Shown here: one piece after another, positions 34,341 to 60,776 of the stretch
Layout: each line of letters starts with the position of its first letter
Numbering within the stretch: position 1 is the stretch's first letter
DNA from: Vallitaleaceae bacterium 9-2
Lineage (GTDB): Bacteria > Bacillota > Clostridia > Lachnospirales > Vallitaleaceae
NCBI GenBank assembly: GCA_038396585.1
Contig: CP121691.1
Coordinates: 2,666,001 to 2,730,000 of the forward strand
DNA: 64,000 bases
Direction of reading: 5' to 3'
Position numbers and translations under genes: made by a program
The notes under the pieces: model-generated
The model's database searches: none
What the model saw: the letters and a program-made list of their open reading frames with translations, nothing else
What the model was told of the DNA's origin: nothing

Positions 34341-34520
34341 ACCTCATCGTATATGAGGTAGAGGCGCAATGCTTATTAGTAATTTCAGTGAAGCCGGAAG
34401 CTATTGATCTGTTATGAAAGGAAGCATTGCCGAAGCATTAAATTCCAAACTTAATGCTGGGTCTGCATTAAACAAATGCAGGACTGTCAATATAGGTGAC
34501 TATATTGTTGAGCTATCTTA
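34341..34520 (+). ncRNA. Lysine riboswitch (L-box) aptamer
   Basis: All conserved words are present in order: GAGGTAGAGGCGCAA, TTAGTAA, GAAGCCGGAAGC, GAAAGGAAGCATTGCCGAAG, AATGCTGGGTCTGCATT, AGGACTGTCA, TTGAGCTATC. The aptamer binds L-lysine; the terminator at 34554 forms the expression platform. Lysine should switch transcription of the downstream transporter off. Confidence 0.96.
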
Positions 34521-34553
34521 ACCAATGCGATGTGATGTATATGTAAATGTATT

Positions 34554-48415: not shown

Positions 48416-48617
48416 ATACCGAGGGTTTAACAACTTTATTGTATCAGAACAAATGAAAAGAGATAGCACAATACAAACTATCCCTAGAATGCTTCTGTTT
48501 TAAAGAAATTTCATTTTGTTTTTCTCCTTTATATTTTCAAAGTATCAAATCATGCTTTGAATCCATACTCTTCAACAATATTAAAAGGGCAGACGATTGT
48601 ATCTGCCCTATTAAAAA

Positions 48618-50789
48618 CTATATTGTGATAAACATTTTATTAACTATATCAGTCATAGCATTTCCTATTTCCTCGAGAACAATGTAATCAAATTTCTGTG
48701 AGGTAAATATCTTTAAAAAAGATTCTTGTAACATTCTCATTGTTTCATCGTATCCTAAAGGCTTATTATATATTTTAGCAAGATGTTTTTTAATTTCATT
48801 ATTGCCATATGATAGTTTAAAAGCTACTTTATCAATTACCATATAATATTTACCACTCTTCATGAAATAATCTTTAAATATCACATGTAAAATCTGCATG
48901 TATCTCTCGTCATCAGACATAGCCTTTATCAACACAGGATTTATGTCATCAAAGGCAATAGCTTTGTACTTGTCTTCACTATCTAATTGCTCTATCAAAT
49001 TATGCAATTCTTCTGTACAAAGGTTGCCTACCACTGTTTCTATCGCTTGATTTTCATATAATGACATCATATGGGGAATATTTTCATTTAGAACTTTTCT
49101 CAACATAGCTTTCATATTTATACTAAAGTTGCCATATACCCTCGCTCTAGTTGTATGTCCAAGTCCAATTTGAAGTTTCCTCCAATAGGTTGTAACACTT
49201 CTACCATTTATAGTGTACTCTGTTCTAATCTGATAGCCATTAACAATTTCAACGTCTTTAGTGAGTCTATACTTCATATTATCCAAGACATCTGACATTT
49301 TCTCTTTACCTAAAGCAATTTTTACCGCAGGAAAATTGGGTTCATTTGCAGTAACGAAAATTGGTTTTGTGATACCATCTGGCAAAATTCGTTTCTGAGT
49401 ATCCTTCGCAATGTAATCTATAACCTTATATAATCCGATAGGTTTAAAATTATCAATTCGATCATCCATATTGTTTCTTAATGCCTTTTGAACTGGATCA
49501 ATTTTTTCTTCCAAGTATCTCAAGGAAAGCCAATTTACACTTTGACTAGAAATTCCTTCAAGGTATCTTTTAATATCCATTTCCACTTCTGTAATTACTT
49601 CTAAAACATGTCCATCATAATCCTCTTGAGATAATTCTACATTACTATCATTTCTGCTATTTTTTTTCTTATAGATTTTATTCCCAATAATGCGATCTGC
49701 CTTAGTAAATATTACATTAATCGGGATATCCATCTTTTTAGCTTTTAATAATTTATCTTTAATTGCCTTACAACTTTCAGCTAAAATATCATCTCTTTCT
49801 TCTAAACTTAGTAGTAAAAGAATGCTATCAGGACTACAATTCAATGCCACATCTAATGCATTTTTAATTGATACGCTATCCATACCTACCTGAGTTAATC
49901 CCATTGTATCTCGGAGACAAAATCTTGTTGGGATACTTTCCTCTCCCATTTTTATAATTTCTTCTCTGGGACGACAAGATAGTGTTAAATCATTAATTAT
50001 AAGACTATATGGTTGAAATGGATCAAATAAATTTTGTAACACGTTCCCCCCATATTGTAGATCATCGTGTTCATCAACACTTAACTCCAATATGTTTTCA
50101 TCTTGCAACTTTTCGCCTAACAAATCCTTAAGTTGTGTTTCAATCAAATCACCGATTCCCTCAAGCCATTCAATGTAATCTACTTTTAGTTCTGGTTCTA
50201 TTTCATTCCACACTTCTTCAAAAACAATTTTACGTACTTCAGATATACTTATTTTTTGTTGGCTCAACTCTTTCTTTTTCATTTTAACTCTGCTCGAAAA
50301 AGATGGTTCAACCATTTCAAAAGCTTCAAAAATTTTTTCCATAGCCTCTTTAAAAGCATCAATAGAAATTGAATCAGCTAATTTCCCGAGATGAAAAGAT
50401 GCTTCTTCCGGTTCTAGAACTGAATATAACCATTCCGCATTAATCGATTCCACTGTATCTTCCATGTCAGCACCATTGCTCACATAGAGTTGTGTTAGTT
50501 TCTCAAGAACAATGATATGAACTGCTTTTGAATCAAACTCTTTTGTCTTCACACAAATAGCGAATTGTTCATTTTTTTCAATTCTTGAATCAAACACAAA
50601 ATCACATGGAATAATTGTTGTCTGGCTTTTATCGCCAATTCCAATAGATATATAACCTATAATTTTATGATTAACCAATAAGTATACTAAAGTGCTTTTC
50701 CCTGATGTCGATGGTCCGATAACCACAACTGATGGTGCTGTACTACTTCGTTTCAATGCATCATTTGAACTTAATTTTTTTTGCTTCAT
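48618..50789 (-). CDS. Large P-loop GTPase of unknown function
   Basis: 723 aa from the ATG at 50789 (MKQKKLSSNDAL) behind AAGGAGG. Walker A/G1 GPSTSGKST at 25-33, a G2-like SQTTIIP at 53-59, G3 DTMG at 294-297 and G4 TKAD at 362-365. The motif set is that of a TRAFAC, dynamin-like GTPase, but 240 residues separate G2 from G3, far more than in ordinary small GTPases. The region is charged and helical. No membrane helix seen. I do not recognise the family. The leader before it carries a short peptide ORF, a terminator and a hairpin hiding the ribosome site, so expression appears tightly gated. It lies in the mobile/defence island. Confidence 0.8.
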   Translation of the reverse strand: MKQKKLSSNDALKRSSTAPSVVVIGPSTSGKSTLVYLLVNHKIIGYISIGIGDKSQTTIIPCDFVFDSRIEKNEQFAICVKTKEFDSKAVHIIVLEKLTQLYVSNGADMEDTVESINAEWLYSVLEPEEASFHLGKLADSISIDAFKEAMEKIFEAFEMVEPSFSSRVKMKKKELSQQKISISEVRKIVFEEVWNEIEPELKVDYIEWLEGIGDLIETQLKDLLGEKLQDENILELSVDEHDDLQYGGNVLQNLFDPFQPYSLIINDLTLSCRPREEIIKMGEESIPTRFCLRDTMGLTQVGMDSVSIKNALDVALNCSPDSILLLLSLEERDDILAESCKAIKDKLLKAKKMDIPINVIFTKADRIIGNKIYKKKNSRNDSNVELSQEDYDGHVLEVITEVEMDIKRYLEGISSQSVNWLSLRYLEEKIDPVQKALRNNMDDRIDNFKPIGLYKVIDYIAKDTQKRILPDGITKPIFVTANEPNFPAVKIALGKEKMSDVLDNMKYRLTKDVEIVNGYQIRTEYTINGRSVTTYWRKLQIGLGHTTRARVYGNFSINMKAMLRKVLNENIPHMMSLYENQAIETVVGNLCTEELHNLIEQLDSEDKYKAIAFDDINPVLIKAMSDDERYMQILHVIFKDYFMKSGKYYMVIDKVAFKLSYGNNEIKKHLAKIYNKPLGYDETMRMLQESFLKIFTSQKFDYIVLEEIGNAMTDIVNKMFITI

Positions 50790-50797
50790 AACAAAAA

Positions 50798-50842
50798 CCT
50801 CCTTATTGGATATGTTTAAGACATAAGTATCCAACAAGGAGG
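50798..50842 (-). promoter_or_regulatory. Hairpin sequestering the GTPase gene's ribosome site
   Basis: Leftward, CCTCCTTGTTGGATA pairs with TATCCAATAAGGAGG (one mismatch, 15-nt loop). The 3' arm holds the AAGGAGG used by the ATG at 50789. Confidence 0.85.
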
Positions 50843-50848
50843 TAAAAT

Positions 50849-50874
50849 AAAAAAACTATGCACGGATGCACAGT
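50849..50874 (-). terminator. Leader terminator (attenuator) of the GTPase gene
   Basis: ACTGTGCA-TCCG-TGCATAGT (one G-U pair) followed by seven T. Its stem begins 6 nt after the stop codon of the 8-residue leader ORF. Confidence 0.78.
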
Positions 50875-50880
50875 ATCAAT

Positions 50881-50907
50881 TCACGCTCTCATGATCACTC
50901 CGCACAT
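50881..50907 (-). CDS. Candidate leader peptide MCGVIMRA
   Basis: ATG TGC GGA GTG ATC ATG AGA GCG TGA, preceded by GAGGGATTTT, a good ribosome site. A ribosome at or near its stop would cover the 5' arm of the terminator at 50874. This is the layout of translation-controlled attenuators such as those of antibiotic-inducible genes. Translation is not proven. Confidence 0.55.
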   Translation of the reverse strand: MCGVIMRA

Positions 50908-50999
50908 AAAATCCCTCGAATTTAAGGACTATGTATCAGTATAAATTTCACTCACCGTTTCCGTATTTCGGTTCTCGTGGAACTTACATCTTTTCAATA

Positions 51000-51028
51000 A
51001 CTTTAGCATATTTTACCACCTAGGTCAA
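51000..51028 (-). promoter_or_regulatory. Promoter of the GTPase leader transcript
   Basis: Leftward TTGACC (51028-51023), 17-bp spacer ending in TGC, TAAAGT (51005-51000). Gives a leader of about 200 nt before the GTPase ATG. Confidence 0.65.
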
Positions 51029-51062: not shown

Positions 51063-51412
51063 TCAACTTACAAAGCTATAGAAAATATATCCTATTCCCC
51101 AATAAGGTATTAATGCAATCTTTCCAGTATAATCCAATCGCATGTAGCTAAGGTATATCACATTTGCCAGTCTTCCACCATCCTCTGTATATCTTCTACG
51201 AATATAGATATAACCACTCTTTTCTAATCGCCAAAGATTTTTGCGTACAGTTGTTTTATATCCCCCAAGAATCTTATTTAGCTTTTTCTGTGATATCTGT
51301 GAACACCACCTTCTCTATTTGCTAACTTGCTTAATAGCATATAGATCATTTTAGCCGATACCCTAGAATTTATTTTCCCTGCTATTTTAAATTGATGAAT
51401 ACCATCAGTCAT
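51063..51412 (-). pseudogene. Frameshifted winged-helix protein of a mobile element
   Basis: Frame one: MTDGIHQFKIAGKINSRVS..KMIYMLLSKLANREGG, then it runs into a stop at about 51278. Frame two continues the same protein: CSQISQKKLNKILGGYKTTVRKNLWRLEKSGYIYIRRRYTEDGGRLANVIYL and on to TGA at 51063. A single frameshift near 51310 separates them. It resembles helix-turn-helix proteins carried by integrative elements and plasmids. Start ATG at 51412 behind GGAGAGG. Confidence 0.75.
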
Positions 51413-51746
51413 GTTTTCTCCTCTCCATCCCATAGACATACTTGTATTTCTTTTGTCCAAATTGATATCTAATAATAAAGCACATCTGAACAACAACCGA
51501 TATGTTGGACTTATCTTTAGTTAGCATACGAACAGCTCCTGATACAGCGCCCAACATAAATACAATGATGATTACCGTATTTCTTGTTAAAAAGAACTGT
51601 AAAGAAGACAAAGATTGGCTTATGGAATTGATACCAGGTAGGGTGTCCATATACCTTTTAGCATAAAGCACCATTGGTACAAGCCCTTCTAAAAGGGCGT
51701 CTACATAAACGAAACCATCTGATAAAATAGCACTTATAAGGAGCAT
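51405..51746 (-). CDS. Small membrane protein, mobile-element fragment, unknown
   Basis: 113 aa from the ATG at 51746; overlaps the start of the winged-helix pseudogene by 8 bp. Two hydrophobic stretches (about 1-25 and 52-75, RNTVIIIVFMLGAVSGAV), a basic tail. It could be the rest of a conjugation-type membrane protein, but I see no firm family mark and it may itself be a fragment. Confidence 0.4.
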   Translation of the reverse strand: MLLISAILSDGFVYVDALLEGLVPMVLYAKRYMDTLPGINSISQSLSSLQFFLTRNTVIIIVFMLGAVSGAVRMLTKDKSNISVVVQMCFIIRYQFGQKKYKYVYGMERRKHD

Positions 51747-51887
51747 AATTACAACTTCCAAATGTCCGCCTCTTACATATTCTCTTAAGTCTATTCAAAG
51801 TGATAAAACACTGAATAAATGTATACGGTAACTAGTCGCTACTAACCTTTATATAAGCCTCCACCAGTGGCTTGACGGTTAACTATC

Positions 51888-52428
51888 TTAGTTTTTGCCT
51901 TTCATAAGGTTCCAGTTCTGACACTTCGTTATCCTGGTGATATATGACAGCGATCTGTTTAAATGTCTGATAGGCAATGGTTGCCTTCTCATTTTACTTC
52001 TTTTCTTTTGGTAAAGCCTTAGCATCAGAGAATCGTCAGCTGCTGTGAGCCCAACTTCCTGCAAAGGTAATATAAGAATTTTCCTTATCCAACTTTTTAT
52101 AGGCTGAATATCCACCGGTAACAACAATACCTTTGAAGTCTTTAATGAACTCCTTGGAATGGTCGCTCTTACTAGTTTTCTGATAGTCATACAGGATAAT
52201 GGGGCTATTATTGTAATGTTTACAGGTTCGGTAAACCCACATGTAACTGGTATTGTTTGCCGGTCGACCGTCTTTTGAAACTTTTCCCGGCGTTTCCTCT
52301 GCCTGTAATACATGGAATGTATACATTTCAGCATGAAGTCGGTCATATACGGTCCCGAGATATCTATCACCACATTGGATCATCCAATTGACCATCACTT
52401 GCTTAGCTACATGAATATCATTTCTCAA
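51888..52428 (-). pseudogene. IS66 transposase (tnpC) fragment
   Basis: Frame 52428-52036 has the IS66 DDE core: VNWMIQCGDRYLGTVYDRLHAEMYTFHVLQAEETP.KVSKDGRPANNTSYMWVYRT...ITFAGSWAH. It then stops; the C-terminal part continues in a second frame to 51888. Frameshifted and lacking the N-terminal half. Confidence 0.9.
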
Positions 52429-53609: not shown

Positions 53610-54890
53610 TTATAAGTGTCCTAATTCCATTGACTCATTAAGGTAATAATATTTTCCATCTTTGATAATAATCTGAACGTCTTCATCGTATAAATTTTTT
53701 GAACTATTAACCATTAATCGATTCTCCGCTCTTTGTCTATTTATTTTATCTAATAATCCAACTGCAAGCTCATTGTATTTCAAATCCTCATTGACCACTC
53801 CAAGAGCAGTTGCAAAAAATCCTTTTTTCATAACTCTATTCTTATCAATTTCTATACCAAGGTGCCCGACTTGTTCTTCATGCCATACCTCTAGCATTTC
53901 CATCGTTTGATTGGATTGGTTTAAATAAGTATTATAAATAGAGTAACTCATTTCATTTGATATTTCGCCTTTGCCTAATAAGTATGTCAACTTGCATATT
54001 TCCTCTAAAAGATTGATTAAAATTCTCTGATATTCAACTAAAATAGAGAACTCATCTACTTTCACTTGATAAGTTTTATAATCCAGTTTATGATTCTTAT
54101 TTATTAATTCGCTAATCGTTAAATTCACTTGTTGGAGTAATTGAGTTCCTTCACCTTCTAAGTCATCCAAAGTCTGCAACTTAAGAATTCCCAACTCATC
54201 ATTCTCTAGAATTTCCATACTATAATTAGAAATTTTTTCAACTCTTGTAATCAGTGACAAAATACGACTTTGAAACTCACGATTTTGAAACTCACTAATT
54301 TGACTAATGCTATTACTAATACTTTCAAGCTTTGAGCTAATCTCTGTCATGTAATATTGTCCCACGACCAAAGAACCCACAGACATTATGTTTGCAACCC
54401 CATTAGCCATCGTACTCATTTTCGAGGTTTTTTGAGGATTCGTTTTAACAAAGTTAGCATGTCCTTTTATGCTATTTTTACCTCTGTAAAATCCTCTTGA
54501 TGCACCTTTCATTTGTTTTGAATCAACAAGCGATACACCACTAGGTATAACCGCTCTGTATAATTCAACTTTATCTAAAGCCCTATTATTCATTGTTTTT
54601 GCAAGTTTATCTGCAGCAGTAGGTATCGTTTTAGAGATTCGTGCAATAACATTTTTGTCTTTAATCTCAAATAGCATTTTATCATCAATGAAATGCGTCA
54701 AAGACAATTGTTCTAATTTGACAATAGCACTACTTTGAAATCGTTCTTCTTCAGGTAAATTAATCTCAACAAGTCCTTTTGCATTGTCGCCCTCATCCCT
54801 TGAAATCGTTGTTTCTGTTCTTTTCCTTTGGACAACGAAAATCAAAGCAACTATTAAGATTGTTATTATTCCGATTAGAAAATACTCCAT
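53610..54890 (-). CDS. Membrane-anchored protein of unknown function in the restriction locus
   Basis: 426 aa from the ATG at 54890 (MEYFLIGIITILIVALIFVVQRK) behind GAGGTG. One N-terminal membrane helix (about 3-22), a long cytoplasmic part with mixed segments (LTHFIDDKMLFEI, FYRGKNSIKGHANFVKT), a hydrophobic patch near 165-180 (GVANIMSVGSLVVGQYYM) and predicted coiled-coil helices from 180 to 330. I recognise no family. It lies 43 bp after hsdR in the same direction, so it is probably part of the defence operon. Possible membrane effector or sensor; this is inference. Confidence 0.75.
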   Translation of the reverse strand: MEYFLIGIITILIVALIFVVQRKRTETTISRDEGDNAKGLVEINLPEEERFQSSAIVKLEQLSLTHFIDDKMLFEIKDKNVIARISKTIPTAADKLAKTMNNRALDKVELYRAVIPSGVSLVDSKQMKGASRGFYRGKNSIKGHANFVKTNPQKTSKMSTMANGVANIMSVGSLVVGQYYMTEISSKLESISNSISQISEFQNREFQSRILSLITRVEKISNYSMEILENDELGILKLQTLDDLEGEGTQLLQQVNLTISELINKNHKLDYKTYQVKVDEFSILVEYQRILINLLEEICKLTYLLGKGEISNEMSYSIYNTYLNQSNQTMEMLEVWHEEQVGHLGIEIDKNRVMKKGFFATALGVVNEDLKYNELAVGLLDKINRQRAENRLMVNSSKNLYDEDVQIIIKDGKYYYLNESMELGHL

Positions 54891-54933
54891 GATTTTCACC
54901 TCTCATTTTGTACAACCAATACTGTTAGGTTTT

Positions 54934-58277: not shown

Positions 58278-59219
58278 CTATAATGCTTCTAAAGCCGCTT
58301 TCTTAATAAATTTATGATCTTGCATTTTATTTGATTTACATCTTTCTATTTCAGCATTTTTAGCTGTTTCTAAATCAACATTGTATAATCCAACAGCTTC
58401 TGAGACATTTGACACCCATCCACTAAGATTATCTTCAGCATAATTTTTAATTCTGTCTTTAACGTCAAATACTTTATCCCAAGTCTCTACCTCTTCATGA
58501 AAATGCTGAGTAATAATTTCAATATTTTCAATTACACCTGTTCTAATAGTAAAAACAGGTTCACAATCATTATCGTCTCTCATAAATGGATAGAATACTT
58601 TACCATAATCTCTAGGATTCTTGTCACCTTTATATGTAGAATTACATGTATGGCAAATAGGAAAAAGGTTCTTCCTAAGCAATGAAACAAAAGGATATTT
58701 CGATCTTGGTAAATAGTGATCAAAAGCTTCACGAAATTTGTCCTTTGATGTTAACATAGGACCTATTCCGCAAAATGGGCATACATATTCTATTGACTCA
58801 TCATAAAATTTTTCATAATAATTCTTGAGCGTTCCTACTTCTTCAACAAGGCCCTTTAATTTCAATAAATTATCATATAAATAATCCTGTATCATTTTTA
58901 AAGCACTTATACATCGTATAAAATCTTTGCTTGAGCCATTTAGTAAATCTTCATAAGAAACTGGATCAACAGTCATATTACATACATTTTCAACTTGAAT
59001 ATTCTTGCTGAAGGCATCAATTAACTTTTCTCTTTCCTCTGGGCGACTTAACTCAAACGCACCTTTAAACGCTTCAAAATCACTTTTGAGTTTGATCTCA
59101 TTCATCCAGCTTGGATACTCAAATACTACCGATATGAAAATATCGGTAAATACACTATTGATTTGATTTATAAGGCCCTCTAATTCTTCATTTTCAAATT
59201 CATTGTAAAAGTACCACAT
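58278..59219 (-). CDS. HNH nuclease, PtuB-like partner of the adjacent ATPase
   Basis: 313 aa; its ATG abuts the ATPase stop (TAA-ATG). The zinc-type HNH core is YVCPFCGIGPMLTS..FREAFDHYLPRSKYPFVSLL..NLFPICHTCNSTYKGDKNPRDYG (about 144-205). It has CxxC pairs, the catalytic His of DHYLP and the N-K-NP end seen in PtuB-like nucleases. With the ATPase it makes a Septu-like pair. In Septu, PtuA forms a complex with PtuB that stops phage. Its place in an hsd operon suggests the pair works with or backs up the restriction enzyme. Confidence 0.88.
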   Translation of the reverse strand: MWYFYNEFENEELEGLINQINSVFTDIFISVVFEYPSWMNEIKLKSDFEAFKGAFELSRPEEREKLIDAFSKNIQVENVCNMTVDPVSYEDLLNGSSKDFIRCISALKMIQDYLYDNLLKLKGLVEEVGTLKNYYEKFYDESIEYVCPFCGIGPMLTSKDKFREAFDHYLPRSKYPFVSLLRKNLFPICHTCNSTYKGDKNPRDYGKVFYPFMRDDNDCEPVFTIRTGVIENIEIITQHFHEEVETWDKVFDVKDRIKNYAEDNLSGWVSNVSEAVGLYNVDLETAKNAEIERCKSNKMQDHKFIKKAALEAL

Positions 59220-60758
59220 TTACGTCATCCTCTTTTGAATCTCAATAATCAACATCAAGCGTTCTGATGAATCCCCTAGAGTATTTTCAATTTCACGTTT
59301 AAGTTCTTCTAATTCCTGATCATTAGTAGCTTGATTAATTTTACTTCTAAATATGCTTATTTCCTGTTTAGCCAATTCTGCTACAGTGTTTCTCTTGTCA
59401 AATAGATTAGCACTAATCATATTCGGATTAGCACCAAAAGTCTCAATTTGCAAACTGCTTTGTAAGCCTCGTTTCATACTCACAACACTTGTTTTTCTTA
59501 AGTCTGTTATTACTTCAGGATTATGAGATGAAAATATAGCCTGTGACATCGGATCAAGCATAGACTTTACCTTTGAGACAAATAAAGACTTCCAACTCGG
59601 ATTAAAATGTGTCTCTGGCTCATCTAACAAAAATAGAATGTTACTTCCGTAAAAGATATTGAGTATGCTAATTAGTTGGAGCACTTGATACTCACCATCA
59701 GAAAAGTTTCTCAAATCCAGTTCAGACCCGCTTTCTGTTACAAAAGTCATTTCAAGTAGTTCAAACACTCTATTATTTGCTATGTTCCAATCTACTAAAG
59801 ATTTCTTGTTTTTTTCATTTCCATATATAATTCTGTTTCGAGTCCTTTTCTTAATCTTATAAATATTGTAGTCATAAAGTCTTTGTAATCCTTCAAAAAA
59901 GGCTAATAAAGACATTTGTTCACGTTCTCTATTCTCTGGTACATGAAACTCATAATACTTAAATCCGTTTTCATTTACATGACCTGTATTTGCATAACTC
60001 ATAATTTCATTTAACAGATACAATGCCTTCTCATCGAAGTAAATATCTTCATCATATATATCTTTCTTATCAAGTCTTATTTTAAATGAAGTAACTAACG
60101 CATTCTCAAAGAACTCTGACAGAACTTCTTGATTTTCAGACTCAAACATAAATGACGTAAGGATTCCCAATTTACTTATCGTATCATCAAAATAGTAAAA
60201 CAGCTCATTATAGCGATCAAGTATACCCTTATTAATAACCTCGCCATAATTGTTTCTCTTAACCTTTTGACTGTCTTTTTCTGCCAAAGAATAAAGCTTA
60301 TAGTTAATGATTTCATCGCTAACCCCTTCATTATGGCCAGATGAGTAAACCACAATCTTTCTGGGAAAGAATACATAATGCATGTTAATATTTCCTATTT
60401 CAAACTCATTGTTTCCATTTGAAATAGTCATTTTAAAATTCTGAGATTTATTTTCTAACTTAATCAACACATGATCAGTATCTTCCCATTCTCCACCTAT
60501 TCCTATTAGAACACTTTCAATCATATGGTCTTTCTGTAATGAATAAGTAGCTTCATAACTTATATCACTTGAGTAATTCTCTTGAGTTATTTGATTACTG
60601 GCATCAACAAATATCTTGGATATCAGTTCAAGAAGAATTGATTTACCACTACCATTTATTCCAACTATTCCAAGGGTGGAGTCATCGCCAAAAATAAACT
60701 CTTGATTTTGCTTGAAAATCTTATAATCACTCAGCAATTTTATTTTTACTAATCTCAT
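59220..60758 (-). CDS. PtuA-like / restriction-associated AAA ATPase
   Basis: 512 aa. ATP-binding cassette of the SMC/OLD/PtuA kind: Walker A GIVGINGSGKSILLEL (about 32-47), signature NFSDGEYQVLQLI (about 365-377), Walker B ILFLLDEPETHFNPSW (about 390-405) and H-loop IFSSHNPEVI. No TOPRIM domain, unlike OLD nucleases. The nuclease is supplied by the adjoining HNH gene. Start ATG at 60758 (GTG at 60761 also possible) behind GGGGGGAG. It resembles the group annotated as restriction-system-associated ATPase. Likely senses phage or DNA damage and licenses the nuclease. Confidence 0.88.
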   Translation of the reverse strand: MRLVKIKLLSDYKIFKQNQEFIFGDDSTLGIVGINGSGKSILLELISKIFVDASNQITQENYSSDISYEATYSLQKDHMIESVLIGIGGEWEDTDHVLIKLENKSQNFKMTISNGNNEFEIGNINMHYVFFPRKIVVYSSGHNEGVSDEIINYKLYSLAEKDSQKVKRNNYGEVINKGILDRYNELFYYFDDTISKLGILTSFMFESENQEVLSEFFENALVTSFKIRLDKKDIYDEDIYFDEKALYLLNEIMSYANTGHVNENGFKYYEFHVPENREREQMSLLAFFEGLQRLYDYNIYKIKKRTRNRIIYGNEKNKKSLVDWNIANNRVFELLEMTFVTESGSELDLRNFSDGEYQVLQLISILNIFYGSNILFLLDEPETHFNPSWKSLFVSKVKSMLDPMSQAIFSSHNPEVITDLRKTSVVSMKRGLQSSLQIETFGANPNMISANLFDKRNTVAELAKQEISIFRSKINQATNDQELEELKREIENTLGDSSERLMLIIEIQKRMT

Positions 60759-60776
60759 CACTCCCCCCCGTTTCCC

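Follow-up and report, generated by a model that had tools for sequence, protein, structure and literature searches.

A Structured Leader Precedes a GTPase Gene

We analyzed a window of 64,000 nucleotides (nt) from Vallitaleaceae bacterium 9-2 (contig CP121691.1, positions 2,666,001 to 2,730,000), which carries at 50789-48618 a gene for a P-loop GTPase of 723 amino acids, preceded by a leader of ~204 nt from the predicted transcript start to the ATG. The gene and all leader features described here lie on the minus strand. A promoter-like site, TTGACC-17-TAAAGT with an extended −10 element (TGC; TG before the −10), was found at 51028-51000 by pattern match only, and such sites are not enriched in the scanned sequence (11 found, shuffle mean 17.1). 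The P1/core domain (50930..50993), the 5′ part of a conserved leader RNA, begins near the predicted transcript start and is supported by its identity with a related locus, by covariation, and by a covariance model match at a third locus. It contains a core hairpin, CG(AAAUACGGAAA)CG, with an 11-nt loop (50956..50970) that is recognizable in four of the five leaders compared. Folding places a P2 hairpin at 50900..50935, in which UACAUA pairs with UAUGUG. An eight-codon open reading frame (ORF) encoding MCGVIMRA (ATG TGC GGA GTG ATC ATG AGA GCG TGA) overlaps the 3′ strand of P2 at 50907-50881 and has GAGGG 5 nt upstream; three further ORFs of at least three codons are listed in the leader. Six bases past its stop codon starts an intrinsic terminator (50849..50874), with the stem at 50874-50855 and the U-tract at 50854-50849 (TTTTTT); terminator-like sites number 2, against a shuffle mean of 0.7. 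The GTPase Shine–Dalgarno sequence is covered by a predicted hairpin (50797..50843) carrying AAGGAGGT in its 3′ arm and followed by UUUU.

A preliminary description of this DNA, made from the sequence alone, had proposed the promoter, the short ORF with its own ribosome site, the terminator 6 nt past the stop, and the hairpin over the GTPase ribosome site, and all of these are present. The hairpin, given there as 15 bp, has 16-nt arms with one G–U pair (50843-50828 with 50812-50797). Together with its immediate surroundings (77 nt) it has a folding energy of −27.3 kcal/mol, a stability reached by 0 of 500 shuffles, and the 201-nt stretch 50960-50760 is more stable than 200 of 200 shuffles (z −4.6). 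A terminator-like site was also found 3′ of the GTPase gene (48586..48609). The same-species strain at locus L003 (1000-1070) shows only two differences in 733 aligned bases, both in the leader: an A within the terminator U-tract and one change in the ribosome-site hairpin.

Termination and Ribosome-Site Folding at Related Loci

Four full-length relatives of the GTPase were found outside the species, on a plasmid of Paenibacillus peoriae (35.8% identity to the window protein) and in genomes G705 (locus L014, 24.4%), G960 (L018, 44.5%), and G1237 (L043, 47.7%), beside the same-species copies L003 (UBA4039) and G952. The preliminary description had inferred premature termination combined with a hidden ribosome site, and the comparison of the five homologous loci is in keeping with both. 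An intrinsic terminator lies 20-130 nt before the start codon of all five GTPase genes as scored with one detector, compared with 11 of 280 control ORFs in 400 kb of the window's genome and 2 of the 85 with 250 nt free upstream. The controls were sampled ORFs of at least 150 amino acids with a ribosome-site motif. Between versions the detector was loosened by one base because of an A between stem and U-tract in L043; the stricter first version, run before L043 was known, had given 10 of 280, 1 of 85, and four of four loci. The ribosome-site hairpin is kept at three of the five loci, where the 60 nt preceding the start codon have a folding energy of −20 kcal/mol or below, compared with 1 of the 280 control ORFs. 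The promoters upstream of the terminators are predicted only.

Conservation of the Leader RNA

In the 5′ part of the leader, the window and L018 are identical at 48 of 64 bases (75%), with a longest run of 21. Across their coding DNA, identity is 54.3% and the longest run is 17, and 19 of 2082 coding segments reach 48/64. The minimum-energy folds of the two leaders contain the same two hairpins. A covariance model built on them (R1) matched L043 with 38.2 bits (E 4.3e-8 in 5154 bases), a locus that had been fetched by its protein alone, before R1 was tried on its leader. In the three-row alignment of these leaders (A9), both partners have changed in 4 of 12 pairs, slid controls show no such pairs, and shuffles of A9 reached the observed values in 0, 3, 1, 17, and 1 of 500 for five measures.

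The core extends to the most distant protein relative. The G705 core, CGAACUUCGAAAACG, agrees with that of L043 at 14 of 15 bases and lies at offset 23 from the predicted 5′ end, as in the window and L018 and close to the 22 of L043, with leader starts set a few bases past the predicted −10 or by the model match. None of 2000 shuffles gave a match as good, and no site with at most one mismatch occurred in 800,000 strand-bases. A second model, R2, gave the G705 leader E 0.15 only and matched the window's own genome once. Taken together, these sequence comparisons establish a conserved RNA along with the terminator and the ribosome-site hairpin.

The RNA appears to keep close company with this GTPase. 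Under strict filters, the only one of 391 Clostridia genomes in which R1 had a match was that of the window, in a search that is blunt for diverged copies. Elsewhere in the window's genome the leader has only short matches (best E 0.0055 over ~34 bases), and the genome has one core site; on plasmids, leader DNA was found in the P. peoriae record itself only, and the exact 18-base core pattern occurred 0 times in viral contigs. Rfam has no family for the four leaders scanned, those of the window, P. peoriae, L043, and L018, with weak matches far under the family cut-offs.

These data bear on a purely cis-acting sensor, an orphan riboswitch-like attenuator whose core would bind a small ligand, an ion, or a host factor with no contact between RNA and GTPase. 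Such a sensor would account for a conserved core with a near-invariant loop and would find its expression platform in the terminator and ribosome-site hairpin, with an alternative pairing that is significant in three of the five leaders (see below). As in riboswitches with terminator platforms, a conserved folded domain stands upstream of a terminator; unlike them, this one has no Rfam match and no known ligand and precedes one gene family only, as far as searched. Since close copies were seen beside no other gene, the pattern would seem to favor an RNA working with the GTPase over a general ligand sensor, without proving it, and we regard the sensor as possible but doubtful.

The Leader ORF and Antiterminator Pairing

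The preliminary description had assigned the regulation to the leader peptide, while naming a lack of conservation of its ORF in homologous loci as a finding that would refute this. The MCGVIMRA ORF was seen only in the window and L003. The same AUG in L018 starts a frame of 36 codons, which passes the terminator and stops at the GTPase ribosome site, AUG UGC GGN being common to the window and L018; the corresponding AUG of L043 has no Shine–Dalgarno sequence (by eye) and no stop and is in frame into the GTPase. The ORFs of P. peoriae are unrelated, one of 33 codons having no Shine–Dalgarno sequence listed at its ATG and a stop 9 nt before the terminator, a similar geometry, and no candidate ORF was listed for the G705 leader. 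The ORF is thus not conserved in the relatives, which rules out the leader peptide as the conserved part of the locus; conservation lies in an RNA fold, which the preliminary description had not seen.

Pairing with a terminator arm is possible for the 3′ strand of P2, which is UAUGUGCGG in the window, or for the segment that occupies its position. Of 1000 shuffles, 13 paired as strongly for the window, 9 for L018, and 23 for G705, so that an antiterminator is partly supported, in three of the five leaders. An upstream pairing that would open the ribosome-site hairpin was no stronger than expected by chance (336 and 159 of 500 shuffles). When a ribosome is placed on the AUG in constrained folds, the terminator persists in the window and L018; when it is placed at the stop codon of the window ORF, the antiterminator forms. 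The latter makes the earlier idea of ribosome stalling mechanically possible in the window, at least in the folding model; it has no clear counterpart in the relatives.

A ribosome-sensing attenuator of the vmlR/cplR type, in which a ribosome stalled on a short ORF in P2 causes read-through and translation inhibitors induce the GTPase, would build on that fold. The vmlR leader is described as an upstream hairpin that contains an upstream ORF (uORF), followed by a terminator and by a hairpin covering the ribosome site (PMC9226507), and uORFs of the cplR type are described as keeping about three codons (PMC10201436). The locus resembles vmlR in this layout, the window and L018 share three codons, and the 33-codon frame of P. 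peoriae ends close to its terminator. Set against this are the lack of a related ORF in L043, G705, or P. peoriae, the terminator that stays intact with a ribosome on the AUG, and a conserved core that ribosome sensing leaves unexplained. We consider this explanation improbable.

A Rare GTPase Family with a Long Insert

The window GTPase has the motifs GPSTSGKS, QTT, DTMG, and TKAD. The preliminary description had pointed to an extreme distance between G2 and G3, and it is confirmed: from QTT to DTxG we counted 238 residues in the window, 241 in L018, 247 in P. peoriae, 243 in G705, and 238 in L043. A spacing of 238-247 residues in all five makes the long insert, ~240 residues, a family trait. 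The G1, G3, and G4 motifs are kept in five of five homologues, with AKS in the G1 of G705.

The family is rare in the genomes searched. Genomes with a full-length relative numbered 1 of 146, 1 of 398, 2 of 391, 1 of 40, 1 of 67, 3 of 295, 1 of 24, and 1 of 240 in the separate searches, counts that include the window's own genome where it was searched and come from overlapping sets with different cut-offs. Second matches in the 146- and 398-genome searches were set aside. One (L002, genome G091) spans 73 residues in a differently built protein; the other (L005, G165) is a 79-residue match inside a protein that resembles an aminoacyl-tRNA synthetase by eye. The L002 gene (1327-2307, minus strand) encodes a different P-loop protein of 326 amino acids with a DTMG motif and two companion genes, and is not a full relative. 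No relatives of the GTPase were found in phage records and viral contigs.

The earlier statement that the protein belongs to no known family holds for the window protein, which falls under every curated family cut-off shown; no specific family was found. Pfam lists the general GTPase family MMR_HSR1 for each of the five rows of alignment A6 (window, L003, L018, P. peoriae, and G705) with a best E of 3.5e-5, and the G705 relative passes the Pfam cut-off. Single rows of A6 also match other P-loop families (at best GTP_EFTU 3.2e-5 and AAA 9.4e-5). NCBIfam, searched with the window, P. peoriae, and L043 proteins, returned nothing beyond weak matches, most of them at the P-loop. For the five proteins, PADLOC gave weak matches only, again mostly at the P-loop, the best (E 7.9e-4) covering residues 28-46 of the L018 protein. 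Structure models reached a predicted local distance difference test score (pLDDT) of 36.4 from the single sequence and a mean of 52.8 from a four-row alignment, with a poor G domain, and a fold search with the predicted models gave no match at E <0.001, the best Protein Data Bank match being a dynamin (E 0.18). The closest comparison is with MMR_HSR1/dynamin-like GTPases of the TRAFAC type. The window family shares with them the P-loop, DTxG, and TKAD motifs and differs in its ~240-residue insert between G2 and G3, in a window protein under all cut-offs, and in the missing fold match.

Genomic Surroundings

To one side of the window GTPase is a type I restriction system that includes a PtuA-like ATPase gene and an HNH-like gene, the latter two placed between hsdS and hsdR (58278-60761, minus strand). 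Between this system and the GTPase are remnants of mobile elements, fragments of a TrbL-like conjugation protein and of an IS66 transposase (51405-52428, minus strand, upstream of the GTPase). A 429-amino acid protein adjoining hsdR (53610-54899, minus strand) has a hydrophobic N-terminal segment by eye and no family match of note; considered as a partner common to the G705 locus, it was rejected for lack of similarity. The G705 gene adjoins JetA/B/C-like genes and, by eye, an IS256-like transposase and a resolvase; the region of the G960 gene holds a serine recombinase, an S24 peptidase, and a Schlafen AlbA_2 protein; and the P. peoriae gene is on a plasmid. In G1237, the gene directly upstream of the GTPase locus encodes a Tet-like ribosomal protection protein that is under the cut-offs shown (L044 4567-7539, plus strand). 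Two of the five loci are near genes that PADLOC recognizes, with one neighbor scanned in G960 and none scanned in P. peoriae and G1237. A defense role for the GTPase is a guess. Elsewhere in the window, a lysine riboswitch (34351-34523, plus strand; 111.9 bits) stands directly upstream of an antiporter gene resembling NhaC and Tet(35), under curated cut-offs.

These surroundings raise an explanation by insulation only, in which terminator and hairpin would shield a gene that had inserted near mobile elements against read-through and regulate nothing. The IS66 and TrbL remnants upstream suit it, and attenuators derived from mobile-element terminators have been described (PMC2965389). A promoter is predicted upstream of the terminator, however, and the terminator position and the core RNA recur in different surroundings, so we think insulation alone very unlikely.

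Discussion

We read the locus as a two-part module, in which a structured leader RNA would silence a P-loop GTPase by termination and by a ribosome-site hairpin and the core of the RNA is most likely bound by the GTPase; we put the probability of this reading at roughly one in two. A leader RNA of ~145 nt (~50993 to 50849), made from its own promoter and consisting of P1/core, P2, and the intrinsic terminator, would account for most transcripts, which are predicted to end at that terminator. Read-through transcripts would be held back again by the ribosome-site hairpin, leaving the GTPase normally off or very low; like the promoter and the transcript ends, this off state is predicted. Displacement of P2 would free UAUGUGCGG to pair with the terminator, and the GTPase would be made. 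The core would then be a specific binding site, putatively for the GTPase itself, because close RNA copies were seen only beside this GTPase. Binding could serve autoregulation, or the RNA could hold the protein in check, as reported for AbiF. It is this partner of the RNA, and the function of the GTPase, that we infer.

Several observations weigh against the module. For P. peoriae (120 of 1000 shuffles) and L043 (660 of 1000), the antiterminator pairing does not reach significance, and holding UACAUA unpaired does not break the L018 terminator. P. peoriae and G705 lack the strong fold at the ribosome site. The domain can be aligned in three leaders only, and the fitting of A9 to the model favors covariation. 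The minimum-energy fold of the L043 leader (−31.2) has neither P1 nor the terminator hairpin; when P1 is enforced, P1 and terminator both form (−27.5), and the 64-nt domain alone forms P1 (−4.3). Taken as a whole, the G705 leader is hardly more stable than its shuffles (23 of 200 equal it), and the P. peoriae leader has the terminator but not the core (best 9 of 15 bases; 1269 of 2000 shuffles as good). The genome search with R1 did not report G705, which had been found in an equally sized class draw, and the RNA model was applied within the class only.

In layout, the closest known systems would be AbiF with its RNA and the vmlR/cplR attenuators. In Clostridioides difficile, AbiF is preceded by a 132-nt structured RNA (RCd22) that ends at a terminator and binds and neutralizes the protein in trans; the RNA start site lies 168 nt before the ATG, and the gene is expressed by read-through (PMC12373285). 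The present locus likewise combines a promoter, a structured RNA with an intrinsic terminator, and a gene reached by read-through, the corresponding lengths being predicted at 145 and ~204 nt, and, P. peoriae aside for the core, the structured RNA and terminator were found with the gene, directly upstream. Unlike AbiF, which is an Abi_2 protein, the gene product is a GTPase, and the leader does not match RF03085, the Rfam motif of RCd22; the likeness is one of sequence layout. With the vmlR/cplR attenuators, the locus shares an upstream hairpin, an intrinsic terminator, and a main ribosome site covered by a hairpin, the last at three of the five loci (PMC9226507, PMC10201436), and it differs from them in a uORF that is not conserved, in the conserved core RNA preceding it, and in a gene for a GTPase rather than an ABC-F protein. 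The locus thus shares its layout with vmlR, cplR, and AbiF, and by the features tested it belongs to none of them.

The two-part module can be carried further, to a new class of mobile RNA-guarded GTPases. The leader RNA would then be a separate transcript that binds and inactivates its cognate GTPase in trans while silencing the gene in cis, and a disturbance of the supply or structure of the RNA, for example by phage takeover of transcription, would release active GTPase. We offer this as speculation and think it rather unlikely. Our searches of the open-licence literature listed no report of an RNA-controlled GTPase of this kind.

At this locus, an RNA fold that has no Rfam match is joined to a GTPase family for which the searched libraries hold no specific model, and the association of RNA and GTPase persists, in one case, down to 24% protein identity. 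Should the RNA guard the protein, the locus would be a case of RNA control over a bacterial GTPase. The system consists of a defined RNA and a defined protein, and it is open to direct binding, transcript, and phage tests.

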